Assembly (NCBI GenBank): GCA_002224055.1
Contig: AZLU01000293.1
Coordinates: forward strand, 1 to 44,522
Source: Pezizomycotina sp. ARF18
Lineage: Eukaryota; Ascomycota
Reading direction: 5' to 3'
Length of the DNA: 44,522 nucleotides
The stretch's first letter is position 1; each line of letters opens with the position of its first letter. A model generated the notes under the pieces. That model did no database searches. It was not told where the DNA came from and saw only the letters and a list, made by a program, of their open reading frames with translations. The translations under genes and the position numbers were made by a program. Below, piece by piece: positions 3,816-28,125 of this stretch.

Positions 3816-3841
3816 TTTTTTTTTTTTTTTTTTTTTTTTTT
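3816..3841. repeat. T26 mononucleotide run
   Basis: An uninterrupted run of 26 T lies about 90 bp upstream of the TATA-like box of the membrane-protein gene. It belongs to a set of long A/T runs across this window. Such tracts can exclude nucleosomes in fungal promoters, so a promoter role is possible. The length may be inexact in an assembly. Confidence 0.8.
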
Positions 3842-3928
3842 AATTGCGCATCGTGGACGACGTCGACTGCCAAAGGTCAACAACAATTAATTTATTTTTC
3901 TCGCTTGCTATTTTGGGGCCGTGGCGCC

Positions 3929-3940
3929 TTATATATTTTC
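3929..3940 (+). promoter_or_regulatory. TATA-like box of membrane-protein gene
   Basis: TTATATATTTTC is followed by a pyrimidine-rich stretch (about 3940-4110, CT and TTC rich) with no ATG until 4212. This is a typical fungal core promoter and leader layout. The start site and a possible intron in the leader are inferred, not seen. Confidence 0.5.
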
Positions 3941-4211
3941 CTCTATGAGGGGGTCAGTTTCTGTTGTTCCTTCTCTCACCATCATCGCCATCTTTCGTGA
4001 TCTTCATCCTGACGAAGGTTCTATCTCGAAGCCGGCTTCATTTACTTAATCATTCTTAACTTTATTGACATCCACTGCTCTTTCTGAGAAGAATCCAAGC
4101 TTCTAGACTACTACAATCTTGCTACCCCTTTCGTCCCTTTTTGCTCTTTCCTCATCGCTTGTCAGGGTATTCTTCATTTCTTACCTCGATATCAACCTCC
4201 TACGAAGGGTG

Positions 4212-6119: not shown

Positions 6120-6207
6120 TGCGCTTTTGGCGCTTTTGAGGGTTATGGCTATGGTTTGATTTGGGTATGATGGTGTTTTTGCATTTTGATTTTGGAGGAG
6201 TTTGAGG

Positions 6208-6440
6208 TGAACTTGGGATGGAGTTTTTTGACTTTTGGGGGGAGGTTGAATAGGGTAAACATTGTTTTGCGATTCACGGTTTTCATTGCATTAGAATTTT
6301 TTGATCATCACACATCACAAAGAGGAGGAAAAGGGTTAAGCGGTTTTTGGCACAGGAAAGATTGTAATGGGTAATTAAATTGAAAAGGCAAAGAATACGT
6401 TTTTTCACGCAGTATCGTTTGCTTTTCTAGCTAGGTGCAT
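6208..6440 (+). repeat. diverged repeat, copy 1 (3' flank of membrane-protein gene)
   Basis: This segment just downstream of the membrane-protein stop aligns with 11202-11438. Shared landmarks in the same order are ACTTGGGATGGAGTTTTTT, GGTAAACATTGTTTTGC, ATTCACGGTTTT, GCATTAGAATTTTTT and TTTGCTTTTCTAGCTA. By eye identity is roughly three quarters. It is T/G-rich like a fungal 3' UTR. Confidence 0.7.
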
Positions 6441-7537
6441 GCCTGTTGCCAGATACTACGGCGGGAATTTGGCGTCGCTTACTCTGCCGCTGTCTTGGTA
6501 TTTTTATATTTCTTGCTTTCTCTCTTTTGCTTTCATAGCATGGACGTGTTTAGATAGCCTCTTATAGGTACCGTCTTTCTATGTAAACATTCATAAGAAT
6601 CAGAATAGCAAAGAATAGACCGGTACGGCCAGCCGCATTGCACTAGTTTTGTACATTGAGCGCCTTGGTTTACGTTGAAATAACCCAGCAACTCCTGATG
6701 TTCGGCCCATAACTCGCTGAGGCGGTATCGTTGTAGCACTAGATACGACTGTGCTCGTACGCGGTCAACATGTACCTGCCGATACTAAACAAGTGTAGCA
6801 GCCCCCACGAACAGCCGTTCTAGCTACCATATATTCTCGAAAGAAACGGGTCTTGCTTATGCGTTAGATGATTCAATTTTCGAACCGTATGTGAGCAGTA
6901 AAGGCTCCTTACGCTTCCCTGAAATTTTAACGAGGTTGATAGTCCGCTATTCTTTTTGCTGTCCATAAGCACATGTAATACTTAAGTATTCATTGGAGGA
7001 TTAAAAGCATTGAACCGGGAATTGTAATGAATAAGAAAACTAAAGTTGAATATCGGAAAATCTGAGCATGGATACAAAGTGTGAACGGGGAAGGAAAACC
7101 CGGATAAGTCTCTAAGCATGAAACCCGGGTGCTTGTCTGAATTCCGACTTGAAATACAGATGTGAATACAGATGTGCGGACAAAGGTGAATATAAACACC
7201 AACGCTGAAAGAAATATAAAGGAAACCATGGGCGGAAAAATGACACGGGTGAAAAATACGAAAATATGAAAACATTAACATACGCAAGTATGAATGAAAC
7301 GAGAGAAACGAGCGAGAGAAAAAAAAAGAGAGATGAAATGAAGCTAAATTTTAGATCCGGCATAAGCAACCTGTATATTTATAATAAACCCCACGCTTAG
7401 AAATACTGTATGGAATTCTAGGTAGCGCTAGCACTTTTCCCGCGATTTTACCCGTAGAATACCCGTTGAAAGTCCTCTTCGAGAGCGCGGGAGTGGTTGC
7501 TAAACTTTACCCGGACCAGACGCCAACTTCAGAATCG
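6441..7537. other. intergenic; 3' flank of aspartic peptidase gene
   Basis: No gene seen. 6441-6980 is featureless. 6980-7370 is purine-rich on this strand, so pyrimidine-rich on the minus strand, as expected for the 3' UTR and terminator area of the minus-strand peptidase gene ending at 7538. No poly(A) signal can be fixed with confidence. Confidence 0.5.
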
Positions 7538-9485
7538 TCATTCGGATCCGGATCCGGATCCGGAGCCAGATCCAGAGGATTGGTTGTCTTGAGACGAGCC
7601 GTTATCCCCAGAGCTGAATTCATGCCCTTCACTCCGAACCTCCTCCGTGTCCGTGTCCGGCCACTCACTCAAGCGGCTAGATGCTTGAGATGCCGCAGGA
7701 GAACTAGACCCAGATTCTTCGGGTACCCAGTAACGGTGTTATTATTACTCGGGGATGGCCACGAACCTCCTCCCGCCGTGTTCGTCGTCCAGTGTTGCAT
7801 TTCGGGATCCGTTCCGAGAAAGACAGTAGGCGGGTATACGGTCTTCGGGGCGGTAGATGCATCTTTCCTGCACCAGGTGACCTTCGGCTTCTCCGGCGGG
7901 GACGTGGTCCGGCCTTCGTCGAAGCAAGCCGTGTGGGAAAGGAAGAACGGTACGCCGATGACCGCGGGCGAGCTTCGAGCTTCTGGAGTATCTAGAGTGG
8001 CGCGCTCGGGCTGCAGAGAACCGAAACATATTTCTTTGGGCACGGATCCCGGGTTGGGTAGTACTTGCCGTCGGGTAGCCTCTGCTGTGGATCATCTGAC
8101 TACCCGGAATGGTGACCAATTTCCCTCCGAGTTTGAAACTAAAGGGCGGTAGCTCGTGATCCGTGCAGAGCCAGAAGACAGTCTCCTTGAAAAAGTCAAG
8201 TTGGCTGTTTCGAACGGTTATCCCCATGTCCGAAAGCTTTTTGTAGTATCCGTTTACGACTCTGGGTCGCTGGAATAGATGAACGGAGCTCCCGTGTCTA
8301 AATTACCGAGTATGGGATTTGGAGCAGGTGGGGCTTCCGGCCGAACATGGGCTTCGGCGTTAGGATCGAAGTTGAGGAGCCAGTGGTTAAATCCATTGGT
8401 GTTCGAGGCTGTTACCGATATCCATTCTGAAGCAGGCTGACCGGGCTCTTCGCAAGCGCACTTTCCTATCGTGAGCTTCGGTTTTCGGCCACGCGCGTCA
8501 TCGTGCCGGTAGAAATCTACCGTGTAGACGGGCCGATCTATCAAGTTCGAGGCCCGAGCTCGTTCCACTATAGTATCGATCCTAGCTTCATCGTTCGCGG
8601 CGTTTGAACTCTGCCCTGAACGATGACCGCCTGCGCTCCCCGCCCGGGGCGTAATTCCAAGGGCCAGGATACCGTCTTCAGGATCTTCGAAAAACTTCTT
8701 ATTCCCCTCCAGCGCCGTCCACTTCTCCACGCAGCCGAAAGTATAGCGCGGAGGGTCAGCCCGTCGACGGTGAAGATATCCGTTGCCGTGGGTCCTTCAA
8801 GCTCAAAAGTCTGAAATTGACTCTTCCAAGCAAAACCTTCGCCGGCGTCGCGCCCGGGATAACGGTTGCCGAAATCGTACTAAGCGCGGTCGCTGTAGTA
8901 AGCGTTCAAACGTTCTTTGTCGCGGGGAGACATTTTGGTAGAATGAACGAAGGTGACGGAGCTGCCGGTGTCTACCGTCATTTTGAACACCTGGTTTGAG
9001 TTGCCGATCTTGATTCCCGCGAGGAAAAAGGTGTTTTGCTTGAGGATGTCTACGACTGCGATCTCGTAGTGCTCGGGGTTCCTCTTAGAGTGGGCAGTGC
9101 TGTGAGCTTTTCCGGCGGTTGAAGGTTTTCCGGTTGACGTCTTAGGCGTATGTACAGCGGCATTCTTGGGATTCTGGGAACCGTGAGCTTCATTAACTGG
9201 CTTCTTGTTGTGAGCCTGGGAGGAGACTGGCTTTACACGCTTCCGCGGAAAGTGTTCAAGGGAAAGCTGATGTAGCGGGATCTCGAAGAAACGCTGGGGT
9301 GCACCGTGTTTTATTGGTTGCTGAGGATGATTTCCAGTGCCGCTTTTGCCTTTGTCGCGCCCTCCGTGCGGGGACGAAGAAATGTCTTTGTCGTGCTGAT
9401 GCAACCCAGGACGCGGAAGAGCCATGGAAGCAACGATGGAGCAGGAGCTCATGAGAGCCAGGAAAGCTGCCGTGATGATCAGCAT
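7538..9485 (-). CDS. secreted pepsin-like aspartic peptidase, frame-disrupted
   Basis: The predicted role is cleavage of proteins outside the cell or at the cell surface (peptidase family A1). From the ATG at 9485 there is a signal peptide (MLIITAAFLALMSSCSIVAS), a His/Lys/Pro-rich pro-region to about residue 140, then the mature domain. The first catalytic motif is seen in FKMTVDTGSSVTF and the second in GNLDTGAPFIYSS, with DGILALG between them as in the family. The C-terminal lobe follows (YYKKLSDMGITV, PFSFKLGGKLVTIPG) and AVIGVPFFLSHTACFDEG, at the place of the usual G-x-x-F-L near the end. The tail is Ser/acidic and ends in a Gly-Ser run and Glu, stop 7538-7540. Breaks: an in-frame TAG at 8880-8882 (one change from Gln CAG) and frame changes near 8740, 8262, 8080 and 7720. 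The DTGA in the second motif is slightly unusual. Family call is firm; whether it works is not known. Confidence 0.82.
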
Positions 9486-9504
9486 TGGGGGGAAGCTTTA
9501 AAAT

Positions 9505-9514
9505 CTATATATAG
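9505..9514 (-). promoter_or_regulatory. TATA-like box of aspartic peptidase gene
   Basis: On the minus strand CTATATATAG lies about 20 bp upstream of the peptidase ATG (9485). If used, it gives a very short or no leader, so a further upstream element may be the true one. Confidence 0.35.
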
Positions 9515-9656
9515 TACAGTTATAGTATAGCATTGTTAAGCTTCCGAATGGTAAAAGTAATGTAGGTGAGAACGACACCCATAGAACAATATATAGAACA
9601 GCTAAACGAGATAAGAAATTCAGTGAATATGTAACTAACGGGTGATAATTGACGCC

Positions 9657-9665
9657 TATAAAAGG
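9657..9665 (+). promoter_or_regulatory. orphan TATA box
   Basis: CCTATAAAAGG followed by a C/T-rich stretch (CTTCCCTCTCCTCGTCG) looks like a plus-strand core promoter. No recognisable coding sequence follows; a 99-codon open frame at 9642-9941 overlaps it and has no motifs. It may be a remnant of a lost gene or chance. Confidence 0.25.
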
Positions 9666-10288
9666 ACAGCCAGACCTTCGAACTTCCCTCTCCTCGTCGT
9701 GCGAAACCATAGCATCTCTTCCAAGCTCTATCTAGATGACCACAGCTGCTCCGCGATACTCATAAAAGGTAACTGCGGGGCTATATCGAGATCTCAACCC
9801 AGCTCTATGAAAGCTTCGTCTTGTAAGGCCGGATATGCGATTGATATAAATGCTATCCAGAACAAGGCTGTAGTTAAGATATTCCTTGTTTTCCCATATG
9901 GCTATCCAGCATCCGACTTCGATGGATGGATACGTACATAGCCGAAGCGGATAATGAAGTTTTTCGAGCTTTGGTATATCGCTGAAATGTAGCTGTCACG
10001 CAACAAAGCTTTGAAACGGAATCGGGCAGCTAGTGCTTATAGTATGAGTATAATACTACTATCTTGAGTTGCGATAGGCAATTTGCGTCTAGTTGAAAGT
10101 ACCGATTAAAGACCAATGTCAAAAAGAGCTTTCAGCGTTCTTTAGCTATGTTTATTTTGAGTCTCGGACGTTAATGAATAGTATATATTAACTATCAAAG
10201 CTTTTACAAGCACCACAAAAGAATGAATGTAGCTATATAGACGGACCTTTGGGGCAACAAACGCCTAATCTTACACGGGTTGCAGCTT

Positions 10289-10310
10289 AAAAAAAAAAAA
10301 AGGGGGGGGG
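10289..10310. repeat. A13-G9 composite homopolymer
   Basis: Thirteen A are directly followed by nine G. Such junctions are prone to length errors in sequencing and to slippage in the cell. Confidence 0.8.
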
Positions 10311-11201
10311 AAACATAAAAGATCCAATCATCTACTTTGAGAGCTCCGATAGTATAGCTGCCAATCCCAAAAAATAAAATAAAGGACAGATATTAGCAAT
10401 AAGGCGTGTTTTTCAAGGAAAGGATAATTATAGATTTTCCCCAAGGCGGAGACGCGGGGTGAATCAACGTGGTTTCAGTTCCAGGTGTTTAGTTTCATAA
10501 GCTAGAAAAAGCATTGACGGGTAATCGGATTGTATTCAGACTGCGCTCGCATTTAGCAGACCTCTTTGCTTTTTGGACGTGATAAAGACGACGGATGGAC
10601 CGATACTGGTGGCGAGCGCCACAGCCGCATTAACAGAAAGGCAAGGCATTGACGGGGAACTTAGCAGTGCCACTTACCTAACTGGTAAATGCAGCTAATT
10701 CAACCGACTGATCAATCCGCGGCCGGACAGCAAATCAAGAGCCAGAATCCAGAATCTCACAGTGCATACTTTAGCTATATATAAGTAATGAGCAAGTTGC
10801 GTTACACTCTCTTACGTTTGCATCACCTCGTCTTCGAGACTTGTTTTCGCCATAATATTACTTCATACCTGAGATTTATATAAGCAATGGAGCCCCGAGT
10901 GGAGCTGTCTCGAGGCTAACCCGAGATTGATTCAGGTTTGCACAACAGGAATAAGCGAGAATCTTTATCAACTTATAGATCACTTAGTACAAGGCTCAGC
11001 CAAGGTTGTTGATATTGGACAGTTCAAAGAGGACAATGCAGCAGTATTTGGCACCTTTAAAAAAAGGCGATGCGTAGAATGGTCAGCAATTGCGAAGTGT
11101 ACTACTATTATATTAACGTCTGATGTTGGAAGCCTTTGTATTTCTATAGGCTGAAGACCATTTTTCCTGAAAGAGTTTTTTTTTTTCTTTTTTCTTGTGG
11201 G

Positions 11202-11438
11202 ACTTGCTTGGGAAGGAGTTTTTGATTTTGAAATGGGTTTGAATATGGTAAATATTGTTTTGCCATTCACGGTTTTTACTGCATTGGAGTTTTTTTTATT
11301 ATTATCACGATGTGAAAAGGGAAGATGGAAATCGTTTAGGGGGGATTTTAACACCGGGAAAATTATAATCGGGTTTTGGATTACTCCAAAGGAGAAAGTG
11401 CACCTATGAAGAATTGTTTGCTTTTCTAACTACATGGG
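11202..11438 (+). repeat. diverged repeat, copy 2 (dispersed copy of a gene 3' flank)
   Basis: This aligns with 6208-6440 in the same orientation: GTAAATATTGTTTTGCC, ATTCACGGTTTTTA, GCATTGGAGTTTTTT, TTTGCTTTTCTAACTA. It lies within the desert with no remains of the membrane-protein coding region next to it. It is either a 3'-end fragment of a duplication or a small dispersed element present in both places. Confidence 0.7.
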
Positions 11439-14400
11439 TAACGAGGGAGGTTACAGAGTTAAATAAAATTCAAGATGAATTACTCGATTATCCATCCTTT
11501 TCTCTTTCCCGTCGGATGACTGCGTCTTACAACTCCCCAAAATTTAAAACTTGCTCTCGAGGTTATCCGAAGGCACGGGCAGGTTTCATAGTCAATCATT
11601 GAGTATGCGATGATGATGCTACGTAGGTTGTGCTGGATTCCATGGTGTGGTCGTGGATATATTTGACCCATTGTCGTGATCGATATTTGGTATGTTGCAT
11701 AGTGGGGCCTCCATGAGTGGAATAGTGATATTGCTAGTACTTGTACAACGGGATTAAGCTTATTTGTCGCGATACACGCAGATATATACTTCGATATACT
11801 TCGCTGGAGATAACGACTGGATAGTAGTAAGCCTGTGGAGTATGGCAGGGCGTTCCAGTACGATGCTACTACTCGCGCCCATTCGACCGTATCACTTTGG
11901 ACTAGTCTGCATGTGGATTTTTTTATGTGGCTTAGGTGCTTCTATGAAGCGTGTTCCTTGAGCTGGCTCCGAGCGCCAAAATTGGTATGGTTCGACACGT
12001 TTCTGCTTGAGACGTCATGATGAATGTCATAGAGATTTTGCCGTTGGTGTATCGGAAACGTGGGTGGATGGTGGTTCGTAAATAGTATCGAAAGATCTGT
12101 GAACTTCATGAATTGATTATCGGGAGGTTTTAAGTTTCGAATTTTGCGTGATTCGTTATCGGTATCCTGGTCCATCCTCTGGATGAGTACTCCGAAACTT
12201 GATATGAGTAGTCCCCGATGGTTTTCAACATTTAACTACTCGGAGTTTTATGACAAAAAGGATGTTTGGGCGACTCGTGCGAGCTTTGTTTAGCTATGGT
12301 TCCACGGCAAATTATCGTAGAAATCCATTCTCATTTCATTATAATCGCGCTAGCTCTCTTACAATAGCTTTATACAAGGGATTTAAGTCATCCTGGCGGT
12401 GGATGTTCGTGGGAATATAAATTTATACTTGAGCTTGTAGCTGGGAGACGTTAGTATCGAAAGTTGTTCGGGTACCTTCTACCGTGAATGGAAAGCTCAC
12501 ATGCCTTCGGCTAGTGATTCGCGAATCTCGTTCTAGATTAAGTTTAGGAGCATTATGCTCGGTGTTTAGCTATCATTGGTGAATGTTACGACCAGAAGGG
12601 GCCTATGTCCTGCCGCGTAAGGGGGATAAGACGTAGCAGTAATAATGTTATCAACCAGGCAGCTAGCGGCTCAATGCTCTGATGGCTGTTTATGAAGCTC
12701 GCTTTGGCCGTGTACTTCATATAGTTTTTCAATGAATATCGGCAACCAGAATCAATCACCCGTGATTACCTTACTACCCGCCTGCTTACTTCTATCGAAA
12801 GTTCGCTTAATTGCGAGTAAATTCGAGCTCCGATGGTATGGCGCAGTCGTTTTCCGGGTTGCATTCTAATAGTATCAAAAGCGCCCGATCGATGCGTCTA
12901 GGAAGGTTTCTATCGTAAAGTAGGTTTCAATTGGTATTGACTGCTTTGCAGAGTAAAGTATGGTTGGCGGGTTATATTTCGTTTGCGATATTTCGCGCTT
13001 GGTCTCTATAATAAAGCTATAAATTCCGAACCCCTTTTATCTTCACTTCTCCATTGCTTGGGCTTTTATGGTTTGTCTGTGCAGTAGCAAGTTTGTTTTC
13101 GTCAAACGGCTATCAGCCGCCACCTAGGCTCCAGCTTATGGCGACCGTTAAATCGTCGTTGAAGTACTTTCCTATTTTATGTATTCTCTCCCATGCTCCA
13201 AGGACTAGATCCTAATCAGCGCCATGATCGCATTATGTTTCGTTACGGCGAGCGGCTTTGGCGGAAACATAGCGTAGTTTCAAGTCTCTGTTGTAACTTA
13301 TCCTGGGAGTTTCCTTTTCCATGATCGCTACGGCGGGTCTCCTCCAAAGGAGTAATACATATGTACATTTGTCGCGGATGCCCGGGTAGCTACGGCTATC
13401 GTGGTCATGGCGTCGGGAATGAGCTCGTAGAAAGTAGTTTAGGAGATATCAGCCAAAATTAAGGACGACTCCGGTGTGAGATGGATGCTCTATATAACGC
13501 CGGTGGTCGTTGTCAATGCAAATGCTATGGGGTTGATGGATTGAGGAAACATGATTCCCGTAATTGTCGACGGCCCCGGTCGCACTCTGGTGTGAAATAG
13601 GGATGTTGATCTCACTATTTCAGTGATAAAATATTAGAGGATTAGTAGAAAATTTCCGTCGTTTAAGTATGTTACGTTCTCCGTTGTAATAGCGCTGCTA
13701 TGATCCTCTCGCTCAATCACTGCCTCTTCTGCGGGAGTAACATTGGATTTAATGATTATAAATTAGCGAGTTCACTTGGTAGGATAGAATTATAGGGGGG
13801 CAGGTTTTCGGGGAATCCCGGTCACGAATAACCCTGAGGATTCTATGGCAGAAATTTGTACTTCCGGGGAGACTGCTGGTTAAGGTATCCTGTGCTCATC
13901 GGTACTACGTACCGTTAGGCAGATTTTGCAGCTCATCACGACAACTTGTCATTTTGGGGCAGAAAGGCTTGATGCTTCGAATCGCGAATTATGAAGGATG
14001 AAGGATGGAGTTTGAAAATCTCCATCCGCGGGCTACGAGCTCAAATCTATAGTCCGCGTTTGTCTACCAAGGCTATGAACCACTCTAGCTATGATTGTTA
14101 CTCTTTGATTTCCAATTTTGCCTACTCAATGTCATAAGTTACGCCCGCTCTCTTACGCTTTACTACTCAGGTTTTTCGCGAGTAATTCCGAATTATGGAG
14201 AAGAAGCAAATGGGCTTCAAAGGCCTAGAACAAACTGGTTATATCACTATCTTCAGTACGTTCGAGCTCAAGTTGCTCCACTGCGATCCCGTGCTTATTG
14301 TACCGCTTCCGATAAACACAAATTGATACGATCGCCGCTTACTCCAACCGTCGATGTGCGGGAAATCTGAAAACGAGAAGTATACAGTGGGCTAATTGTC

Positions 14401-15999
14401 TTCTAGTAGTCCAGCTTGATCTACGAGTCAGCATCCGCACGAATTTTTGGCCTCTTCGCGTGGGTATATAGCAACTCATTCTTAAGCTTTCTCTACGCTA
14501 AGTACAGGTAGGATTGTGAGCTTTTTGAATGTAATTAACCATCTCGAGGCGATAATCCAAAATACGTCTGACGCAATATGACTTTCGCAGTTACGTATTT
14601 CACATGTCTACCGTATAGCGAGTTTCGAAATGATTCCCCGTGGCTTAATTCCATTACCGAGGTTTGGGAAAGGTTCTCTTGGTCTGATATCCCAAAATAT
14701 CCGCGACACTGAGCCGCGACGTAGATATACCAGGTACGTAGCAGTTGGTTTATTTCATCTATGCTACCTTTGATAGCTCCAAGCTGTAAATGAGCGTATA
14801 TCATTGCTTAGCAAGCTTTTCACCCCGCTAGAGAAGTATAATAGGTTTTTAAGCGCGATTCTAAAAATTTAAACCGCGCTTGCTCTTCAGTGCCAATCAC
14901 GGGCTTTCTACATGTCGTACAACTTCTCTAATCTGGCTATCGCTTCGTGGCGGCGACGCAAATTTATTACTATACTGCCTAAGGATCACACGGTAGCAAT
15001 CTCTATGGATTTTACTCTGCAGCGCGATAGTGATTATTAGATTTAAAACACATTCAAGTACTATTAGGCTCCGGTACCAGATTACATTTTCCGATTCTGT
15101 AGTGCATCGTGTCGGCGGCGACTCCAAATTACCTGAAAATTATGACTTGCCTTCGGCTTGAGAACTTTAGTCAACTGCATTTTTGGTATAATATAGCTGT
15201 ACTCTGGCCGAAACTGTGATAATATCCATTTATCCCACAAAATATTGCTAGGTGTGATCTCATCCTCACCCGCGAGCGCATTCGCGCTCGTTCAGTATCA
15301 AGAGACGCACCCGGCCATCATTTCCAGATCCTTTTATGGCCTGCAAGCATTATCCAACTTCTCATTCGACGTGAGTTGAAGTTTGTTTCTCTTCTCACCG
15401 TGATGCCTGCTGTTCTGGATTTTCAAAATACAACCTACCCGAGACTCGTGCTAGTGTTCAAGTTATCTTGCTGCACGCTCTTGTATCCGAGGCTACCACT
15501 TACGCTGTGCGAGCGAGGACCTGGGACGAAGTGACAATTATGCTCTACGATATGTGTCGGCTGATCAATCGCTATAGTACGGCTTTCTGCCCTCCTGACA
15601 AGGCTATGCCTCCAGCATATTGATTCTACCGTGAATATCAACTCTTCGGGTAAAGTTTCTAGCTTTTGATATCTACTTGTACAATGCGACCTCCATTGAT
15701 TGAAACGTCTTTTTGCATTATGTGGCCGTACGGTGAATTCATCTCTGTACTATCGATTCAAGAAAGAACTTGCGTGGACGTATTATCAGGTGTGTCTCTT
15801 CTTACCGAAAAGGATATCACATCCACGGACTACAAGGCGTGCGAAACACCATTTATTACCAATAGCGCTCGATATATGGGCCGAAGCGATTTTATTCTGT
15901 ATAATGTAGGGGGATTTTGCATATGCTTCTAATAGGACGATCCCGACTCTTTTGTGAGCGGCGTGCTGGTATTTCGATGTGATCGTGATTTCTTTTGCA
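11439..15999. other. gene desert
   Basis: No gene recognised. Repeated words hint at very old repeats: GTATCGAAAG at about 12086 and 12453; TTAGCTATGGTT at about 12290 and TAGCTATGATTG at about 14087, each followed 60-75 bp later by GCTCTCTTAC. GC content looks moderate, with many CpG, unlike AT-rich RIP islands. Confidence 0.45.
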
Positions 16000-16660
16000 T
16001 TTTCATCTTAGCGTATTATCTTCTATGATCACCGTCCTTCGTTCTCCCTACATCGGAATTTTAAAGCTGAATATGGCTCCAAGGTAGGTCCCGGAATGCC
16101 AGTTCATTCCTTTTGTGTTATAGTCGTACGGGAGCGCTGAAATATTCTGTAAACGAAAGAAATCTTGTACTTATAGCGTTAGGAACAGCCAAAAGTTACA
16201 AGGCGACACTTGTGCAAAAGCTTTCCATTTCGTATTTTAAAGCATAGCAGGGCTTCTATTGCTACTGTGGCCGAGAGAATAAAGTCTTTACTTCTTCGAG
16301 GCTCCCAAATGCAGCGCATTGCAGACAAGTTCCTCGATGGAATCTTTCTGTTTTATATGCTGGCGGCCGTACCAACCAGATTTTCACTCGAAGGCATCGC
16401 GTCAGTATCGAGTCTGACCGCTTTTTCCACAAGATAAAACAGCTACCTTGATGCCCCAGTCCAAGAGGTTGAGACAATATCAACGAACGGCGTATATTTT
16501 CGCAAGGTTACTAATTCTGGGTACCCTATGCAGATTTGGAGAGCTAGGGTTATCAAACTTTCGTCCTCTTCGCTGGTCTCCATATGCTCGGCTTCGACGC
16601 CTCTTTGAGTTTGGAATGCTGTTTCTTCAAGGTAGATGCCAAACGGGTCAATATGGCTAA
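16000..16660 (+). repeat. diverged duplication, copy A
   Basis: Landmarks recur further downstream: GGAATTTTAAAGCTGAATATGG (16063) against AAATTTTAGAGCTGCCTATGG (17602); TATAGCGTTAGGAACAGCC (16173) against TATAGCGTCAGGAAGGAACAGCC (18066); AAAGCATAGCAGGGCTTCTAT (16239) against AAAGCATAGCGGCGCTTGTAT (18137); GATAAAACAGCTACCTTG (16433) against GATAAAACGGTTACTTGG (18390); TTTGGAATGCTGTTTCTTCAAG (16611) against CTGGAATACTGTTCTTTTTGAAG (18626). The offset grows from about 1.5 to 2.0 kb, so copy B carries insertions. Confidence 0.6.
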
Positions 16661-17778
16661 ATGCTCCGGCGTTCGACCTGTCGCGTCGCTTATCGGAACG
16701 ATGTACTTCTGTTGAAGGAATTTGAGCCCGACCGATCGATCATCCTAAGTAATACAACAATATCGTAGGGACCATTTTCGGCGAAAATCACGTTTCCAGA
16801 CGACCTCCTGCTTGTATCGCAAGGTCGTTGTTTCTGCGTACGCTGGCGTTATCCGAGCAGGGTCAAATTGTACATGGTTCTGAATTTATGCCATGTCGCA
16901 TGCATAACGAGCGCATGGAATTGTATCCATCTAATGCTAAAACGCTGGAAGTTACGTCTCTTTGATATCCCGTATCCCGATCCTTCTCTATTTTCATCCT
17001 GGAGTGTAAATATGCGACGTAGTATGTTTTTCCGTGGTTATATTAACCTGTGGCTTATTTCCTCAATCTGGGAAATGTTTTGCGAAGCTCAATGGAATAA
17101 CGCTATCGTAGTGGCCCTGAGTTACACGAGCTGTATGGTTGCGTCCGTCCTGGAACGCTATCATAGAGTTCTCAGCGCCATGAATAATACTATACAATGC
17201 TCGGAATCATTTTTCGGTTATTTGTACCGGATAGGAACGGTGGCTGACCGACACTTATCAGCTGAGGACAATACAAGATGTTGCTAGATACTACGAGCGT
17301 TATGGCGAACCTAGAACTCCACCTAGACGATTTATTATAAGTGTTTTGTCTGGTATACTCGGTGTGCAAATACTACGGTCTAGAAATATCCGGCAAAGTT
17401 GCGAACTATTCGAAAGAATTTTATCACGTCGGGTGTCGGCTCGCGAGCACGTACGGAAGCACCCCGTCATCTCCAATTTAAAGATTATGATCGAGGTGCT
17501 TGTAAGGCGCAGACCTTGCTAGAGACCTAAATCTTTCTCTCTTACGATCTGACAATAGAATCACAATGTTGCCATCGTTCCTCTACTTTTTCACTACATT
17601 GAAATTTTAGAGCTGCCTATGGCTGGAGCAAATCGCTTCCGGAAGTCGGCAATTTGTTACTTTTGCCTTATTAGAGTGTTAAATATCTATGTAGGAACAC
17701 CATTACCATACATCATGTATATGCCTTATTGTACATAAATAGGGGAGCTTTCCCCCATCATCTCCATCAATCAACTCA

Positions 17779-17809
17779 AGGATCAATCCCTCTTCACGGT
17801 GTTCCAACA
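17779..17809 (+). repeat. 31-bp exact direct repeat, left copy
   Basis: Begins AGGATCAATCCCTCTTCACG and is identical base for base to 18011-18041. It is exact amid strongly diverged repeats, so it is recent. Confidence 0.9.
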
Positions 17810-17921
17810 GGTTATGAGCCGGTAGACGTTCTACTGGCTAACTCTGACCGTCATAATGTTGCGATACATTTTTTAATTCTTTTTAAAAAATTCTTTATTA
17901 ACGGAGCACCGTCGTCACAAA

Positions 17922-18010
17922 AGCGATATGCACGTCAAAACGCACAGTATTAAAAGCGCATATGCACGTTAAAACGCACAGCATCAAAACGCATATGCAC
18001 GCCAAAACGC
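17922..18010 (+). repeat. 33/34-bp tandem repeat, about 2.7 units
   Basis: Units start at 17922, 17955 and 17989 and share the core CATATGCACGTCAAAACGCA (small variants per unit). The array directly abuts the right 31-bp direct repeat. It is a short minisatellite. Confidence 0.85.
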
Positions 18011-18041
18011 AGGATCAATCCCTCTTCACGGTGTTCCAACA
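18011..18041 (+). repeat. 31-bp exact direct repeat, right copy
   Basis: Identical to 17779-17809. The two copies enclose 201 bp that include the 33-bp tandem repeat. This could be a local tandem duplication or the flanks of an insertion. Confidence 0.9.
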
Positions 18042-18689
18042 TTCTAAACCGGAAAATTTTGTCTTTATAGCGTCAGGAAGGAACAGCCGATAATTACCGG
18101 GTGAAGCTCTCGTTAAACCTTTCTGCTTTTATTCCAAAAGCATAGCGGCGCTTGTATCTCGATCGTGGTGGGTGGAATAGTGATCCAGTAGTCATGGTTT
18201 ACACTACTTTCTCGAGGGTATGATACGGCCGAATTTACTCCAGGTGCTCAGAGGTCGTTTAATAGATACGAATTCAGTAATATCTAGTCTTTAGAGTTCC
18301 CTCCTACTAGTCCTACTGATTATATTTTGGTGGCATCCGTCCAGGCATCGAGGTCGCCAGTCTACAACAGCTCGTTGCTTCTTTCGCACGATAAAACGGT
18401 TACTTGGGTATCCCAAGCACGGATTTTGGAATAGTACCACAAACAGCAGCCTCAGAACTATTAGGGGAGATAAAATCTACATAAAGAAAACCCTCTAGTT
18501 ATCGGTATGACGAGGGCGCCTACATCTACAATGCTGTTGCTATCACGCACGCTGTAACCGCTCAGAGATTGGGTTACCGAGCTTAGGTGTTGTTTGCTGG
18601 TTGTCATATGGCCAGCTTCTCGGGTCTGGAATACTGTTCTTTTTGAAGTGCACGCCAGTCAAGCAAACACGGATGATTATGATGCAGTG

Positions 18690-20399
18690 TTCAACTTTCT
18701 GGTCACTTATCCAGACGACTTGCCTCCGTTAAAGCGATATGAACGTATTGTCCGTGCTAGCAATACAATGATATCCTACGGAGCGGGTCGGCGATGATCA
18801 CGCTCGTTAATAACGTTCCGTTTGTATTACAGAATCAATATTCCCACACACACTGCCATTATCGTAGCAAGCTCCATGGATATTACTTTCTGAAATATGG
18901 CAAAGAAAGAAAACTTCGTCACTATTATATAAGGTGAAGCTATGCTTATGTGTATTGTATGATTCCAGATGGCTCCATAAAGAGGGTGACGGGGAGAGGT
19001 ACCTTATATACATGGTCTGAAGCTGCTAGAATGGGTGGTGGTCGGGTCGTGTCCTGGTGCAAGGATTATCGAACCGGATCAAGCTCATCGGACACTGTTA
19101 CGTAAATGGAAGCCACAAGGTTTTGATATCTGGTACTCATTCGTCGTTTCAGGCGTGTAAATATCCGACGTCGCGAGCTTCTGTAGAAGTAGTAAACGCA
19201 TAGTTCATCTCGTCTCCGATGAATATTCTTGTGAGAAGGGTGCTGAAAGCACTTCATAGCGATGCACCTCCAGCCACGCGAGCTATACACCACGAGCGTC
19301 CTCTCTTAAACACTAGCCAACGTGATCTCTAGGGCCATTCCAAATATGTCGCAATTCTGCGGATCACTACCGTTGTTTGCATCAGCCAAAAAGAAGGGTT
19401 GACCGAAATATCAGTGGAGGCCAATCCATAATGTTCCTGAATACTACTAATGCTATAAGCAGCGCGGAGGATTTGTCCTCATGCTCAGTTATGATTTCTT
19501 TGTTCGTTATTACTTAGATTTCGAATACTACAGTCTAGAAGTTCCGGAACTATGGTTTCCCACTTGGTCGTGTCGATTAATCCTGTTAGATATAATCTTC
19601 TTGTAATAGTTTCAGCTGATCGCTGATAGGTTGTCTCGATGTCCTCTACATATATAACAGCCGGAATATCACTACTGGCATCATAGTATGAATGAGACGA
19701 TACTACTTAGGTCCCGAAATCGATATCTTACGGATTTTGCTCTTCTAAACCCGAATGAGGAGAAAATATGACCGCACCCGAGAGCAGGAGCGATGTGGAC
19801 CTGAGATCCAAACTAAATGTTACTAATGGTGCTCTGAGTTGTCGTTGTATCAATTAATACGTAAGTCTTTCTTGGAAAAGTTCGAATGCGGGTTAAAACG
19901 AGTGCTAAGGTTGTTTGTTTGCTTTGCTGTTTTTTAATTTGCTAGATACTCAAATTATTTTTCCTACGATGTAGAAATTTCTAGCAAAAGCCAAAAAAAA
20001 AAAAGAAAGAAAAAAAATTTTTTTTTTCTTCCGCAAAATTGAAAAGCAAAGAGCTTCTAAGGACATCACGCAAAGCGTAAGTCCAGTTCTATGGCCATCT
20101 ATAATAGTCATGAGATCAAGTGCGGCGGGTTGGTTGTGGATTTAAGTTATTTGACGTCTGAAATAAGGCTGTTAAGCAGCTATAATAATAATCCCCCAAG
20201 ATTTTCATGATGCCCAACATATACCCCAGAGAAGCCTTATAGCTGTTTCGCAGTCCAGTATTGCTATTCACTCAAGAATATATGGATTTCTCCCGGCGGT
20301 TGTAAGTTTGTATCCACCTCATTTTTCACGTTTCATAATCCTAAACTCACAATCCTCAAAGAGTTACTACTTACATACTTGATTCTATTTATTTAAATT
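18690..20399. other. gene desert
   Basis: No gene recognised. AATACTACAGTCTAGAAGTTCCGG-like sequence at about 19526 echoes a similar string at about 17370, another sign of old duplication. An A/T purine-pyrimidine block with runs of A then T lies at about 19991-20030. Confidence 0.45.
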
Positions 20400-20744
20400 T
20401 AAGGATGCTCAACCCACCTCTTAAAGCTATCTAGTACTCGATTTAATATATCTCGCCGTAAAGAGTAGTTATTCATAAATTTCATGAGTGAAGTTGAGTT
20501 TAGGTCCACCCGAAAGGCTCCATCCCTCATTTTATGCGAACGAGCTCAATCGGTACGAACTCAATCGGTACGCAAAATATTGAGGTACTAGGATTCGAGG
20601 ATACCCAACCTACCTCGTACAGCGATTTCAAGCGAAGCTTCCAATGCGCTGCATCCTAGAGAGTAGTAATGAATCAGTTTCGTACTGTGTGGTTGAGTTT
20701 AGGTCCACCCGAAGTGCCTTCTGGCGTCTTAAACGTTTTACCAC

Positions 20745-20786
20745 CCGGTTAGCTCAATCTGTTTGGAAAAGAATTGAGCTAACCGG
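20745..20786. repeat. perfect 14-bp inverted repeat in array unit
   Basis: CCGGTTAGCTCAAT (20745-20758) and its exact reverse complement (20773-20786) are separated by 14 bases. It could form a hairpin or cruciform, or be a paired protein-binding site. It overlaps the array's TAGCTC box. Confidence 0.85.
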
Positions 20787-20926
20787 CTCTGGTAGCCCCA
20801 ACTCACCTTGTAGAGTAATTCTGAGTAGGCCATCTAAGTAGACTCGCCGTGGGAGTAAAACCGTGAAGATTTTATGAGAGCTCTGCGCATAGATTCGCCA
20901 GAAATGCCGTCTTCCTTCATTTTTAC

Positions 20927-20966
20927 CCGGGTAGCTCAATTTTTTCAAAGCGGTTGAGCTAACCGG
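20927..20966. repeat. second inverted repeat, next array unit
   Basis: CCGGGTAGCTCAA (20927-20939) pairs with TTGAGCTAACCGG (20954-20966) with one mismatch and a 14-base spacer. It is 182 bp from the previous palindrome, so the palindrome is part of the repeat unit in this part of the array. Confidence 0.8.
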
Positions 20967-23900
20967 CCTACAAAGATTTTTCAAAAATTATAATGAATCA
21001 AACCAGAGAAAAGTTTTGCATCCGACTCGTTTTACTGAAGCAGAGAATATGCACCATTATTGATGTGTTGATATTTTGGTCCACCCGATCCAGGTGTAAG
21101 CTGATAATCTCTCAGACCAGACTCCTGGAACCATGGAGAAGTTGATTAGCGAAAGAAAGACGGTGCTTAAGCTACCTTTAACAAAGAATCTGTTGGTACC
21201 ATTCGATCCGCGTAGCAGATCTACGTAAGGGAATACTGATTTTGCCTCATGTTGCGGTGGCTTCGGCAAGGCTAATAAGCGGCTATGTCGACGGAGTTCG
21301 ATTCTGCCAACGGACCGTCAAGGAAATTGACATCTCGAGATTTCATATCGCTCGAGTAGCCTTCCAAGAGCCCCTTACTATGTTATTACAAGCATTTCGC
21401 CTCCCTGCACGGGAATACGCTGAAATTATACTGCGCGCTTGACTTTCGATCCACCATGTTTTAGGCGATATTCGTTTTGTTCGTATCCTCGGCTAATTTT
21501 CACCAAAACTCGACATCGCAAGTTCATGGTTCCCCAAACTTCAGAACTAGAGCTTAAAAGCATTACCATTGGATCCAGTTCATCTAGCTGAATAAGAATA
21601 TACATGGCGTTCATGTAGTAGTTGGTTTTCAACCCACACTATTTTCTCAATTACTTGTCGTCAAGTCGAAATGTTTCGTCAAAATGTTTCGATTGTAATT
21701 TAAAGAATTTAGGGCTCCTCAAAGCATACTGCTACAACTTAATATTGATATCATTCGATTGACCTCAATTTCCCGAGTAAAGATGTGTCGCTGAAAGGGT
21801 CCAGCTAAGGTAGTCGAGGTTCAATCTGCACGTTTTATTTCAACGAATAAATAACTAAGTTCACGGTTTTGTTTCAATGAACCAAAACTTCACAGTAACC
21901 TGTTTGGGTCTCTCCAAGTACGTAACCATAGCTCGATATTAGCAGCATTCAATGCGCCTCCTGGGCCTGGATAAGAGGATATAAATATAATGCATTGGAG
22001 TTGAACTTTAAGATTCGTTTCTCGTCTTAAAAAAAAAAAAACCTTAAACCCGAGCTACTTTCCGCTCCTTAACATATAGCTCAACTATAGAAAAACACCA
22101 CCATTGTGTCCAGCTCGCTTCGCTGCATTGGAAACTATAGTTTTGTTACTTGTGTGGTATGTTTTGGTCTACTCGTGTTTCTTCTCATCTGTACGTGGGT
22201 AGAAGCACGTTAACGTACCGCGACGTTTTTCATTGAGGGCAGGAATTAGGTGGATTAACTATGATTACCAATGATTCGTAAGCACAGAATCCAAAGCACT
22301 GGAGCAAGCCCTTTGAAACAGTACCAACCTTGAGGCAGGATGGTATAGGTAGATCCAGCCCGAATACCCCTCGTTTGAAATATTCTCGTTAATTCATCAA
22401 TCTGTTAAGCCCATTTAATTCCTTTTCACCACCAGTTCAGAGTAGATCAAATATTACATACATTAATAGTGAGACAGAGTATCGAAAGCACCTTGGCGAG
22501 CTCGATTGAATAGTTAAACTATTATTCCGAAAGGCTATGCCTTGATCCTCTCAAAAATTATGGTGGTCAAGTTGTGAATCGCGAAATAGGTTGAACCATT
22601 CTCAACTTCAAATGGTTGAAATGGAGTGACTCGAAGATCGCCTCCGACTAATTTTGGGGTCTATATTTTATGCAGCTCCAGGAGCTCGATTGAATCGTCT
22701 AGTTTTAAGTCAGGATTCTATGGTTCGGTCCATATCCATCTAAATCTTTACTTTTAAGTTTATGAATCGTGAAACATTGGTTAAAACATTCTCAACATAA
22801 AAATAGTCAAGATGGGGTCACCCTACCTTCACCTCCCATAGTAAGAACCTTAGAATAGTGTGCAGCTCACTGAGCTCGATTTAATTATATAGTTTTCATT
22901 CTATAACGCTATAACTTAATCCATTCCGATCCTCGCCCTAATAATTGTGAGTTGCAGGAATGTTGGTTGAACTATTCTCAACCTTTTAACCTTCAAAGGT
23001 CGAAAATCAGTCGCTATCATACCACCACCACCAACAAAAAGAAACAAAGGCATTCGAATGGCTGAACGTAGCTCGTTTGGACGGTGTTAATTTGTTGTGA
23101 TGTTACAACTTGATCCCACTCGAAAAACGCCATGAGTAAAATTGAGTGTTGTGGAAAGTTGAATTTTTCTCACGCTTCGACGCTGAAATCGAGTGGCTAA
23201 CATACCCCACCAATGAAAAGAACAACAGTACTCGAACGGTCTCAGGGAGCTCGTTTGAAGAGTGATAATTTTGTGATGAGGTGTTACAACTTGATCACTC
23301 GAAATCATCGTTGGTGAAGTTGAAATTTTCACAAATTTATTGAACTTTTCTCGACTCTTCGATGGCCTACTTGAGTGGCTCTAATACCCTCGGAATGAAA
23401 GGTAGATATTGCCTTCGATCGGCCCCACGTAGCTCGTTTGAAGACGTAGTTGGAATAGCGCAAGAGACTACTTGGTCTACCGCAAATCGTCTTTCTTTGA
23501 AAATCGTAAGTGGTGAAAGTTGGTTGAGAAGGTTTGAATGTTAATCCCTTCAGCACAAAAAGTCGGATGACTTGAACACCACAACCAACAAATAGGAAAT
23601 GCAGCGTTCCATCGGCCTGGGACGGCTTGATCTAATGGTGTAGTTCTCGTTATGTATTGTTAAAACTTGATCCGCCCAAAAATGGACTTTCGTAATGTTC
23701 CATTTGCGCTCAGAAGCGCGCCAACAGCGGCCGCTCAATTCCTTCACCAAGTGGGACCGAGTGGATCTAGCACCAATCCCTGAGTACATAAAACGTGGCA
23801 TTGAATCTGCGTCAGCTAGCGCCTTCACTTGAAGTGGTTTTTATTGATTAGAGCTATAACTTGATCCGCGCGAAAACGGACTTTTCATAATATCTCGTTG

Positions 23901-26780
23901 CGCCTACTACGCGCCAACAGCTTCCTTCAGCGGCAGGACCGAGTGGATCTAGCACTAGCATCTGAGGACAAGGAACACGGCATTTGATCCGCCCCAGCTA
24001 GGGCCTTCACTTTATGTCGTTTTATCAACAGAAGCTATGACTCAGTCTACACCAAGGTTGATATTTGAGGTTGAGAGCCGGTAGCCTTTGCCCGCGCATT
24101 TGGCGCCAATTAATTCCATTTAACATAGATAACTAACAGCCTAAACATATTCACCAACTAGAAAAAAATATAGCCTGGTATGCGCCCAAACTACCTTGTT
24201 TTAACCATATAGTTAGTACCTTCTAAACTTATACTTTGGTCCACCCGAATGCTCATCGTACAGATTTGTTCTTATTAAAAGTTCGCGCCGCGAGCTTTCG
24301 TTCTCTAAGCTATTTAACAGCAGTTAATGAGCATCCCAAACTATATTACCAATAAAAAGTAAATGCAACACCGAATACGCCTGAGCCAGCTTGTTTAAAT
24401 CTCATATTCTTCATCTTGTGAATCTATACTTTCATGCACCCGAATCCTTTCAGGTAACATTGCCTTTCGTCAACCAACCGCCTCCAGAGGATCTATCGCC
24501 TTCTCAGATATTTAGTGGCTCTCAATGGGTAGCCCAAGCTATATCACCAATAAAAATCAAATGCAACATTTAATCCACCTAAGTTAGCTTCCTTGAAAGC
24601 TATACCTTTTATCCTGTGAATATATACTTTCATCCACCCGAAACCATTTCACGTAAGGTCCCCTTTCGCCAACCGCCCCCAGCGGCCCTTCCGCCCTCTC
24701 CGCCGTTTGGCAGCACTCACGAGTATCCCAAGCCCTATTACCATTAAAATTAAATCCAGCACTGAGTCTACTTCAACTAGCTCGTTCGAATGGTGTAATT
24801 TTTCTTTTGTGGTTTATAGCTTTGTCCACCCGATAATATCGCCTTTGGAGATTAAAAATCGCGAAACTACGGTTGAGGTCAAGAATATCTTAAACCCGAG
24901 CGGCCCCAACAACATTACGGTAGCATAAAAATTCTACTTTCAATGCAGCTTACTGCGCTCGATCGAATCATGTAACTTTTAGTCTGTGGTTATATCACTT
25001 GATCCACCCTGATAATTTTCATGCTTCAAATTAAGAATTGTGTAGTGATCACTCCCGAAGATCTCTTTAACCCACTCCAAGGTGCAACCTAAACACCAGG
25101 ACTTTATCATAAAAATTATAGCTTGCGATGCAGCTAACTGAGCTCTTCGAATGGTATAATTTCATCGTGTAGGTATATGACTTGGTCTACTCCAAAACTT
25201 CACACTTTCAAATTAAAAATCGCTAACTGAGGCTACGCCGACGATCTCTTCATATATTATACGGGTAGCTTCAACACCATCATGGTAGCATCAAAACTAT
25301 ACTCTGCAATGGCAGCTGACTGAGCTCGTTTCAGTGGGTGATCTTTTTCCCGCCTAAAGCTATAGTTTGATCTGCCCTAGATTCTACTTGACCATGCGCT
25401 CTTTAATCCGCAGTGGGGCACATAGATCTCTGGTAGTTGTAGAAATGCGGTGGATTGAATTACCTCTACAATAGAAAAAAAACTACAGGGGATCATCTGC
25501 CCCACGTAACGCTTTCCAGCGCCGTAAATTTCAAGTTCCAAAAGTGTAGGTTGAACCATATTTATTTCAAGGAAAGATAAACAAACTCCTTCTCGTACCT
25601 CTCGTACCTTGAGCTCACGAATTGATAATATAACATACTGAAAACAGCTACTCAACTTACAATCACCAATGAAATTCTGATAGCATCTTAACCGCCTCTG
25701 TGAGCTGCATTAGGAATTGGCCTTGGATTGTTGTGGTGAGGTGGTTCGCTCCACTGTTTTGTGTAATTTCAAGTTTTGAATAAAAGCTCTGCCACAGGGT
25801 GCGGAACTCGACGGATTCAAAGACTCGGTATTCCTAAACCACAATGAATAGAAAGTTCAAGAACACAATAAAAAGCACCTCGGTGAGCTGCCTTACGGAA
25901 TGTTCTCAGATTCCGTCAATTAGGTGCTTCGGGAATGCCCATTAACAACCCTGCGGTTTCAAAGCCAAAAAATAACTTCCAGGAAATGATCTGGCCTTTT
26001 GCGTGTATTTCAAACAGTCTCTGACTACCTCAAGAGAAAGAAAAGAATACGCCGTCTAACGTAGCTCACTCTCCCGCATCGAACGGTATAGTTTTTATCG
26101 TTTGATGATGGTACTTAGGACAGCACCTATTCGTCAAACGCTCTTCCAAAGCGTTCCCAACGGTATCGGCGCGGGATAATGGAACCTGGGAATATCCTAC
26201 GGATCTAAAGTCACGTTCACTGAATAAAATCTCCATATCATCGCTCACGCGCGTGAGCTGCTGTAATTCGTATATTTGAATTTCGATTGGAGGGTAGATG
26301 GGACACCACAAAATAGAGATTTTGAAAAATTTCCCAGTGGGATGGAGCCCCACATCAGATTCTCGAGATACACATTTTTCACCATGCAAAATTCTACACT
26401 TTAGCGTAAATAACTCGACAACAACCATTACTCAAGGCAAAAGAAACCCGAAGCTAGAAACTGATTGATTTGCTCTTTCGATTGGCCTACTTGAAATTAT
26501 TCGATAATACTAGTTGGGAAAACCTGTTTTGCACGCAAACATCAGTGTTGCGGTAAAAAGTCGTGATCTTCAGCTTCGGAAGTTTATCAAATCCACCGCA
26601 CCGCAAGCCAAGAAACCTTTTGTTCCCGAACCCTGAACGGAATATTCCCCCGCCTACAGACGTCATAAATTTTTTCTCTTTAAAACCGTAAAAGCTTCTT
26701 TTTGCCTTGCAAACTTCTCGAAATCCGGCAATTGAGCTTCACCACCACCACGAAACAAACGATCAATTGGTATTTAATTC

Positions 26781-26803: not shown

Positions 26804-28125
26804 ATGACGCTAAGGCTCACGATCCAGCAATTCCTTCAGACGGCGAAGCAGTCCTTCTCCGCCATCAAGGAGAACAAACCGGATCGGGTCATGATTGTAT
26901 CCGGGAACGAATCCGCGGGTAAACACCCTCTCTCCTCCTCCTCCTCCTCCTCTCGACCTCCTCAATCCCCCTTCAATCCACACGTATAAAACACAGAACT
27001 AACATCTCGCAGACCTCGACTCGATAACCTCATCAATCCTCCTCTCCTACATCTCCTCCTTCTCCCCAAACCCAACAACCTCCCAACCCCATACACCCAA
27101 AACGCATCTTTCTCCCCTCATAAACATCCCCCGCGACGAAATCGACCTCCGTCCAGAAGTCCTCCACCTCGCCACGAAATTCCACTTCCAAGCCTCCGAC
27201 CTATTCTTCCTCGACGACCTCCCCACCACCTCATCCTCATCCGTAATGGATAAAGTACCGTGGGTGTTAGTAGACCACAACGCACGCACCGGAAAACTAC
27301 TAGACCGCTTCGGTAATAATAGTATACCGGTATAATCGACCACCACGCTGACGAGGGGTATGCGAAAAATGCGGATCCGAGGATTATTAGTGCGGCGGGG
27401 AGTTGCTGCTCGTTGGTAACGAATTATCTTAAGGAGGGTGGGGGACGTTATCGGAGACGTTACCGGAGAACATCGATAAAAGTCTATCCGCGATGGCGAT
27501 GGTAACCTGTCTTGATCGATACGGCGAATTTAGTATCGAAGGTCACACAACACGATATTACAGCTATAGAGTATTTAATGGGGAGGAATACGGAAGTCGA
27601 TAGGGATCAATTGTACGACGAATTTAAAACTGCGAAGGGAGCTATAGATGATTTTCCGATGAGGGATTTATTACGTAAAGACTACAAAGAGTGGAAGAAG
27701 ATAACGGCGTACGACTTGGTATCGCGTCTATTGGACGGTCATTAGAGTGGATAGTGCAGCGCGACGGGCAGGAGTTATTAACGCGGTGGATAAGTGGTGT
27801 GAAGAGAGGAAGTTGGAGGTTATCGGTATTGTTTGTAATAATGGTGCGAAGAGGGGGGAGGATTATAAGAGGTTGTGCTTGGCGGGGGTTAGTGATAGGA
27901 GTAAAGATGTTGCGGGGGCGTTTGAGACGCAGGGGAAGGAAGAGTTGGCGTTGAAGAAGTTGGAGTTTGAGGTTGAGGTGGAGGGGACGTGGAGTTGGGA
28001 GCAGGGGATTTGGAGAAGAGTCGAAGGAGATTGCGCCGCTGTTGAGGGGGATTTGTGCGGGTTGTGAAGTAGGGATGAGAGGTGGAGGGTTTCTGTTTGT
28101 ATATGGTCTTTCTTGCATGTTGTGA
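26804..28125 (+). CDS. PPX1: exopolyphosphatase (DHH/DHHA2 family), frame-disrupted
   Basis: Releases phosphate from inorganic polyphosphate; the yeast homologue is cytosolic and soluble. Exon 1 (26804-26918) encodes MTLRLTIQQFLQTAKQSF and ends in VSGNESA. The intron is 26919-27012 (GTAAAC...CTAAC...CAG). Exon 2 resumes with DLDSITSSILLSY, so the joined motif is GNESADLDSI, the first DHH metal-binding motif. Next come DLFFLDDLP, PWVLVDHN and the signature IDHHADEG (27335-27360). IDTANLVSKVTQHD and the DHHA2 part (DRDQLYDEFKTAKGAI, DFPMRDLLRKDYKEW) follow, then LEWIVQRDG, WCEERKLEVIGI and a C-terminal KEIAPLLRGI. The order matches fungal PPX1 along its length. Frame changes are needed near 27333, 27440, 27508, 27690, 27790 and 28010, several beside G runs. 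The true stop is 28067 or 28125 depending on the last shift. It is convergent with the XRCC4-like gene, about 210 bp apart. Confidence 0.85.

Follow-up and report, generated by a model that had tools for sequence, protein, structure and literature searches.

Why should a tandem repeat stay evenly spaced when the sequences of its units have drifted far apart? The question is raised by contig C293 (AZLU01000293.1) of the fungus Pezizomycotina sp. ARF18, a stretch of 44,522 bp from a 46.36-Mb genome of 408 contigs; this whole stretch is called the window below. The original prediction, made from its letters, had placed an old tandem array of roughly 30 units at 20400..26500, with four ordered boxes recurring every 176-201 bp at a tight period of about 188 bp, and had proposed either a satellite of great age or selection on phasing. 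The array is real and larger than first noted, and it belongs to a genuine family of old arrays, nucleosome-sized and dyad-symmetric, that is dispersed in the genome. As to what holds such arrays together, our preferred interpretation, to which we give a probability of about 0.38, is that they consist of phased, dyad-symmetric, nucleosome-sized protein-binding units whose boxes and spacing are kept by selection.

Exact 7-mer matches within 20-26.5 kb are most frequent at a lag of 185 bp (95 per 11-bp bin; mean 8.3, standard deviation (sd) 11.5), with more peaks at 372, 573 and 750; no peak at lag 185 appears in the 7-mer list of 0-18 kb or in that of 27-44.5 kb. In the list of base matches for 0-18 kb, lag 180 comes first (z 4.6), with ten further lags at 4.1-4.4. 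The lag of 185 with its multiples and the spacings of the units place the units head to tail at a constant period, as in a satellite. Tandem Repeats Finder, run on the window, missed the array. An anchor resembling TTTGGTCCACCCGAA is repeated along it, neighbouring sites being mostly 178-199 bp apart. With a profile hidden Markov model (HMM) built up from 17 hand-picked units, 25 units are detected on the plus strand at E<0.01 (best 4.3e-24), and a family-wide HMM finds 32 units in the window at the same threshold, spanning 20,205 to 26,320 and lying mostly ~184 or 194 bp apart from centre to centre. A possible 33rd unit at 26,432-26,532 is weak (E 0.0068). Left of the array, the best match of the family HMM in 9,500-20,200 has an E value of 1.9, and none is found in 1-9,500 at E<5. 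Beyond the last unit, ~480 bp separate the array from an ATG-started frame at 26,804-26,917 on the plus strand (272 bp if the weak unit is counted), taken from the sequence as the first exon of the neighbouring gene. The coordinates, the number of units, the autocorrelation expected near 185-190 bp and the halt shortly before a gene are all as the original prediction had them.

The units detected by the family HMM, none of which is assigned to a strand, lie at 20205-20336 (unit 1, E 7e-5), 20395-20523, 20592-20715, 20965-21090 (unit 4, 376 bp from unit 3, with one undetected unit between them), 21150-21263, 21347-21469, 21516-21651, 21701-21822, 21904-22010, 22064-22175 (unit 10), 22241-22379, 22431-22570, 22614-22736, 22803-22937, 23021-23117, 23197-23308, 23371-23501, 23561-23691, 23759-23890, 23932-24068 (unit 20), 24137-24263, 24320-24455, 24525-24645 (unit 23, the best score of the window, E 1.5e-15), 24719-24850, 24892-25015, 25080-25209, 25258-25386, 25433-25569, 25639-25763, 25821-25932 (unit 30), 26024-26128 and 26178-26320 (unit 32).

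The four ordered boxes do recur; they are the mirror halves of one imperfect palindrome. In a consensus of 97 units from nine fetched stretches, each taken on the strand chosen by the HMM, 44 of the 57 mirrored positions are complementary (0.77), against 0.26-0.46 for 16 shifted axes. Conservation in these 97 units is mirrored as well (rho 0.55, p 9e-6), also at AT-only (0.63) and GC-only (0.75) positions, with values of -0.17 to 0.29 for shifted axes. An independent test using 14 of the 15 array anchors, read on one strand of the window (the anchor at 23,983 was dropped), singles out one axis, which lies 45 bp before the anchor (z 4.7). With centres taken from a symmetric matrix, 61 shifts were compared per array, and the axis came out best in 10 of the 11 arrays with at least five units, the exception being C358, where it lies one base off (z 2.6), and five random control stacks show no axis in this test. 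On the minus strand, too, an HMM built from the window only matches the units of the window (best E 1.8e-5). Each arm carries TGAG and ATTGAAT central boxes at ~+1 to +15, a T-rich part at +18 to +29 and an outer TTTGATCCACC box at +45 to +55, the most strongly conserved positions being ±46 to ±54, ±4 to ±14, and ±18, ±19 and ±24. Folding 136 units about centres set by the symmetric matrix, a procedure biased towards symmetry, leaves conservation close to noise farther out than about ±78 bp. Each unit comprises a symmetric stretch of ~155 bp, followed by a linker of ~28 or 38 bp, and combines the length of a nucleosome repeat (183.6 bp) with dyad symmetry that covers ~147 bp. The two arms do not covary (0.369 within units vs 0.376 permuted; 273 of the 300 permutations reach the observed value), which is what recognition of each arm as DNA would predict.

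Outside the boxes little similarity is left. Mean unit identity is 0.47 between adjacent units, 0.41 within an array and 0.40 between arrays, and blastn between arrays returns fragments of 19-53 bp only. In four arrays, ungapped comparison gives 0.27-0.29 for spacers (0.26 expected) vs 0.37-0.40 for cores, and the whole-length similarity of a homogenised satellite was not found in four arrays. Outer spacers are 27.0% identical in C259 (25.9% expected) and 27.3% in the window (25.8% expected). These low identities, with spacers near chance, support the great age that had been proposed for the array.

A single tight period describes the array in part: the spacings do cluster, but in two modes (about 183.6 and 193.8 bp) and with some outliers. 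The regularity is easily seen in the fetched part of C259, whose 15 units are separated by 184, 182, 194, 181, 183, 186, 183, 183, 182, 183, 184, 184, 183 and 182 bp. Across the family, the spacings pile up sharply at 182-187 bp and a second time at 192-198 bp, with few values between, whichever of two ways of finding centres is used; a spacing of 192-198 bp occurs in 10 of 14 stretches. Among 110 spacings, 64 fall at 181-187, 5 at 188-191 and 18 at 192-195 bp, the binomial p being 0.005 for all and 0.035 for the window. A two-mode fit to 124 spacings, including 14 gained by filling in missed units, places the modes at 183.6 bp and 10.2 bp above it (sd 1.8 and 2.4, weight 0.30). By the Bayesian information criterion (BIC), this fit is better than a t or a skew-normal distribution both for all 124 spacings (840.9 vs 860.7 and 857.6) and for the window alone (224.6 vs 231.3 and 229.7). 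No correlation links one spacing to the next (0.015, 105 pairs), and the matrix score falls from 31.0 in place to -28.7 at a 10-bp shift; both results argue against mis-centring. A Rayleigh scan of the spacings shows no sharp optimum period; its nulls are wider than the data, and its p values are not relied on.

The original prediction had named other arrays elsewhere in the genome as support for it, and 13 further array places were indeed verified, which brings the arrays of at least two units to 14 in 46.4 Mb, window included. They were found among 26 places scanned outside the window: 13 arrays (C10, C9, C157, C72, C194, C30, C130, C37, C259, C144:93k, C3:419k, C358:7.7k and C149), one single unit (C61, E 5e-11) and 12 places without an array (C29, C152, C46, C107, C144:54k, C10:133k, C66, C262, C358:25k, C144:30k, C28 and C57). 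Among the last, C57 holds one match at E 0.021, and the first HMM matches C46 at E 0.088. The C9 array lies 5 kb from the chance pattern match that led there. As fetched, and several were fetched in part, the arrays span about 0.35-6 kb.

Pattern searches of the genome gave, for matches and reversed-pattern controls, 15/4, 5/0, 8/8 (no excess), 7/1, 24/8, 26/4 and 19/5. Respectively 6, 3, 1, 2, 7, 8 and 5 matches lie inside the window, leaving 9/4, 2/0, 7/8, 5/1, 17/8, 18/4 and 14/5 outside it if the control matches are all outside. The 19 matches of the last pattern comprise 14 in arrays or units already scanned, two at C138 and C156, each of which is matched by two overlapping patterns, and three new ones. 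The verified count leaves out 13 pattern-match places (C44, C48, C117, C4, C42, C97, C138, C156, C333, C368, C1, C3:295k and C125). Ten 3-kb samples at arbitrary places gave no match at E<0.1; these are the only unselected samples, five of the six 10-kb negatives being pattern-match places already seen to lack an array and the sixth a neighbouring stretch. A rough estimate of the family size is about 15-20 arrays. A BLAST-type search of the genome for similar DNA returned the window itself only, and since Tandem Repeats Finder missed the array and blastn gave mere fragments, similar arrays elsewhere may be overlooked.

The genome that harbours these arrays has had very strong mutation of the repeat-induced point mutation (RIP) type, as indicated by C10:1-2300, a stretch ~2.3 kb from an array with extreme RIP-like indices (GC 0.23, (CA+TG)/(AC+GT) 0.02, TA/AT 1.57). 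Such DNA and the style of the genes would suit a filamentous fungus. None of the 8 of 14 arrays tested bears such a signature ((CA+TG)/(AC+GT) 1.00-1.24), hence RIP did not make their divergence. RIP was also rejected as the cause of drift without indels, on the absence of its signature from the eight arrays and on the share of transversions, half of the changes. In such a genome a tandem array may persist only as long as its units remain unlike one another, and divergence may let the present arrays escape RIP.

On the interpretation favoured here, the array would be a string of ~30 protein-binding units, each most likely occupied by one nucleosome, or by a nucleosome-sized complex of two-fold symmetry, with its dyad on the axis of the palindrome. 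The linker of ~28 or 38 bp would be free in sequence and held in length, and the array would encode a chromatin fibre whose repeat is 183.6 bp, or longer by one helical turn. Between units the sequence has drifted to randomness and the spacing has changed rather little, and it may be the spacing as such that the cell uses; a string of nucleosomes would fit the dyad stretch of ~147-155 bp, the 183.6-bp repeat and the one-turn difference between linkers. We infer from these features that a protein or nucleosome sits on the units and that their spacing is under selection. The second mode and the mirrored conservation of the boxes add weight beyond constancy of spacing. A bolder and more doubtful proposal is that the arrays are dispersed, DNA-encoded chromatin rulers: selection would keep the boxes and a distance in helical phase, not the sequence in between, and in a RIP-active fungus divergence would let a functional array survive. 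If the phasing interpretation is true, these loci would be natural regular fibres of nucleosomes, or of nucleosome-like particles, written in DNA; they would make helically quantised linkers, an old question, testable at defined places; and they would show how a functional tandem repeat persists under RIP, with boxes and spacing kept and the rest diverged.

Several results weigh against the favoured interpretation. The 107 single spacings (mean 185.5 bp) have an sd of 7.3 bp, and the 124 spacings include 12 outliers at 172-178 bp and others at 156, 159, 200, 203, 209 and 215 bp. Outside the window the two-mode fit ties with the t distribution (BIC 629.5 and 629.4; skew-normal 634.9), a tail test without the window gives p 0.059, and a bootstrap of the mode offset over arrays is wide (3.1-13.1). 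Ordinary tandem duplication also acts: at 23561-24645, four adjacent unit pairs reach an ungapped identity of 0.51-0.66, a sign of more recent tandem duplication within an old array. The classical nucleosome signal is absent, the power of AA/TT/TA/AT being 0.01 at 10.0 bp and 0.37 at 10.3 bp; a 10-bp rhythm in the conservation spectra is no better than in permutations, and the arrays show no 10-bp autocorrelation. An apparent 5-bp rhythm in the conservation profile was not significant either. Nucleosomes, if present, would be placed by bound proteins or by a non-classical signal, and another two-fold symmetric complex would be equally plausible. Finally, linkers free to change length were simulated at 1.5 substitutions per site. 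At indel:substitution ratios of 0.01, 0.03 and 0.1, a fraction of 0.71-0.89, 0.40-0.73 and 0.12-0.44 of them keeps within 2 bp (sd 1.6-8.5, 2.9-14.0 and 4.9-25.8, respectively). In 10 arrays, the observed share of spacings no more than 2 bp from the array median goes from 0.33 (window and C3) to 0.83 (C259) and overlaps the neutral range of 0.40-0.89 at ratios of 0.01-0.03, so that constancy of spacing alone is compatible with neutrality at 1-3% indels. Selection on phasing, one of the two origins first proposed, is favoured by the dyad symmetry and by a second mode lying 10.2 bp above the first, and disfavoured by this overlap.

The main rival is the other origin, a very old functionless satellite, which we consider nearly as likely. 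A palindromic ancestor with two length variants (~184 and 194 bp) would have been duplicated and then decayed by substitutions, indels being rare; it comes close behind the protein-DNA array because simulations with 3% indels also overlap the observed spacing. Identities that are low everywhere, the closer neighbours among the window units and the near equality of transitions and transversions (723:718 in adjacent pairs with identity of at least 0.5) all suit it, and an ancestral length polymorphism would yield two modes. It fits less well with conservation that is very uneven and mirrored even at AT-only and GC-only positions, although context-dependent mutability would mirror too, and with a spread within modes of only 1.8-2.4 bp, narrower than the sd simulated at ratios of 0.03 and 0.1. 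The same discrete mirrored boxes, which hold most of the information, and the two spacing modes could instead belong to a binding-site array for a sequence-specific dimeric regulator (an enhancer, silencer or insulator); helical phasing would then be favoured by contacts between proteins and not by nucleosomes. Four array ends (window, C10, C157 and C72) lie about 440-560 bp from ATG-started frames, chosen by eye. We regard this as unlikely: boxes over ~155 bp are large for one dimer, unit numbers vary between arrays, and the four neighbours matched by Pfam share no theme.

The remaining explanations are far less probable. A polycistronic precursor of hairpin small RNAs, the least likely of all, would account for the palindromic consensus, and the hairpin RNAs (hpRNAs) of flies, which are tandem hairpin RNA precursors, likewise consist of palindromic units placed head to tail. 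The fly precursors differ from the present units, which show neither an excess of folding nor covariation of the arms: against dinucleotide shuffles, the 32 units have a mean z of -0.12 on the plus and -0.33 on the minus strand, with -0.34 for 32 control stretches, and RNAalifold finds no consensus structure for 24 units. A hairpin array was rejected on these grounds. Rfam gave one sub-threshold match (E 0.97) in 18-28 kb of the window, at 26,845-26,879, outside the array, and tRNA models found nothing in the window. Some centromeric satellites are nucleosome-scale, dyad-symmetric repeats, and 14 verified arrays are of the order of a chromosome number. Sites of this kind, centromeric or otherwise serving chromosome segregation, are nonetheless improbable here, since the arrays are short as fetched, the tested stretches are neither AT-rich nor RIP-like, and some neighbours are ordinary genes; nothing singles out a centromere or origin function. 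Slightly less remote, and still very improbable, is that the arrays are internal repeats of a dispersed mobile element. Their dispersal and a precedent in non-autonomous Helentrons of oysters (PMC7492417) would agree with it. Against it, 17 flanks (up to 3 kb) of 9 of the 14 arrays share one long match, of 295 bp at 72% in inverted orientation between the left flanks of C10 (about 2165-2455) and C157, and otherwise matches of 21-33 bp. The 295-bp repeat is probably a worn transposon, its C10 copy overlapping the RIP-like stretch.

The macro-dyad satellites of Tribolium madens are nucleosome-length and dyad-symmetric (PMC13081366), and nucleosome-length satellite DNAs have been reviewed (PMC8122249). 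The present arrays resemble them in their tandem units of about a nucleosome repeat and in their dyad symmetry, and depart from them in having units only about 40-47% identical, in being short and dispersed, and in spacers that keep a fairly constant length with a near-random sequence. In yeast, nucleosomes mapped genome-wide have linkers preferentially of 10n+5 bp (PMC2522279). The length classes ~one helical turn apart recall this quantisation, and 183.6-147 = 36.6 bp is near 10n+5; here, in contrast to yeast, the pattern comes from one repeat family and from DNA sequence alone, with a second mode insecure outside the window. The oyster arrays carried by Helentrons (PMC7492417) are similarly short, satellite-like and scattered in the genome, and differ in the mobile-element flank, of which the 17 flanks of 9 arrays share none here. 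In searches of open-licence PubMed Central literature on such arrays, related repeats and linkers, no report of arrays like these was listed.

Pfam matched four of nine neighbouring protein pieces: an aspartyl protease in the window at 8,880-9,485, 11 kb from the array, a TPR protein next to C10, an FAD oxidoreductase next to C9 and a Na/Ca exchanger next to C72. The 38-aa piece of the frame at 26,804-26,917, which we take to resemble a fungal exopolyphosphatase, was not matched by Pfam. A coding repeat was rejected, as the spacings are not multiples of three and no frame of at least 110 aa lies between 17,287 and 26,066. A 120-aa frame on the minus strand (26,066-26,428) overlaps the end of the window array, and at 4973-5999 of the stretch fetched from C157 the array end is crossed by two frames (222 and 241 aa) that overlap. 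Beside the window array, the ~10 kb at 10000-20200 contain just two frames of at least 110 aa (10,980-11,354 and 16,868-17,287) and no detectable unit of the family. A short tandem repeat of ~33 bp in 2.8 copies is found at 17918-18011.

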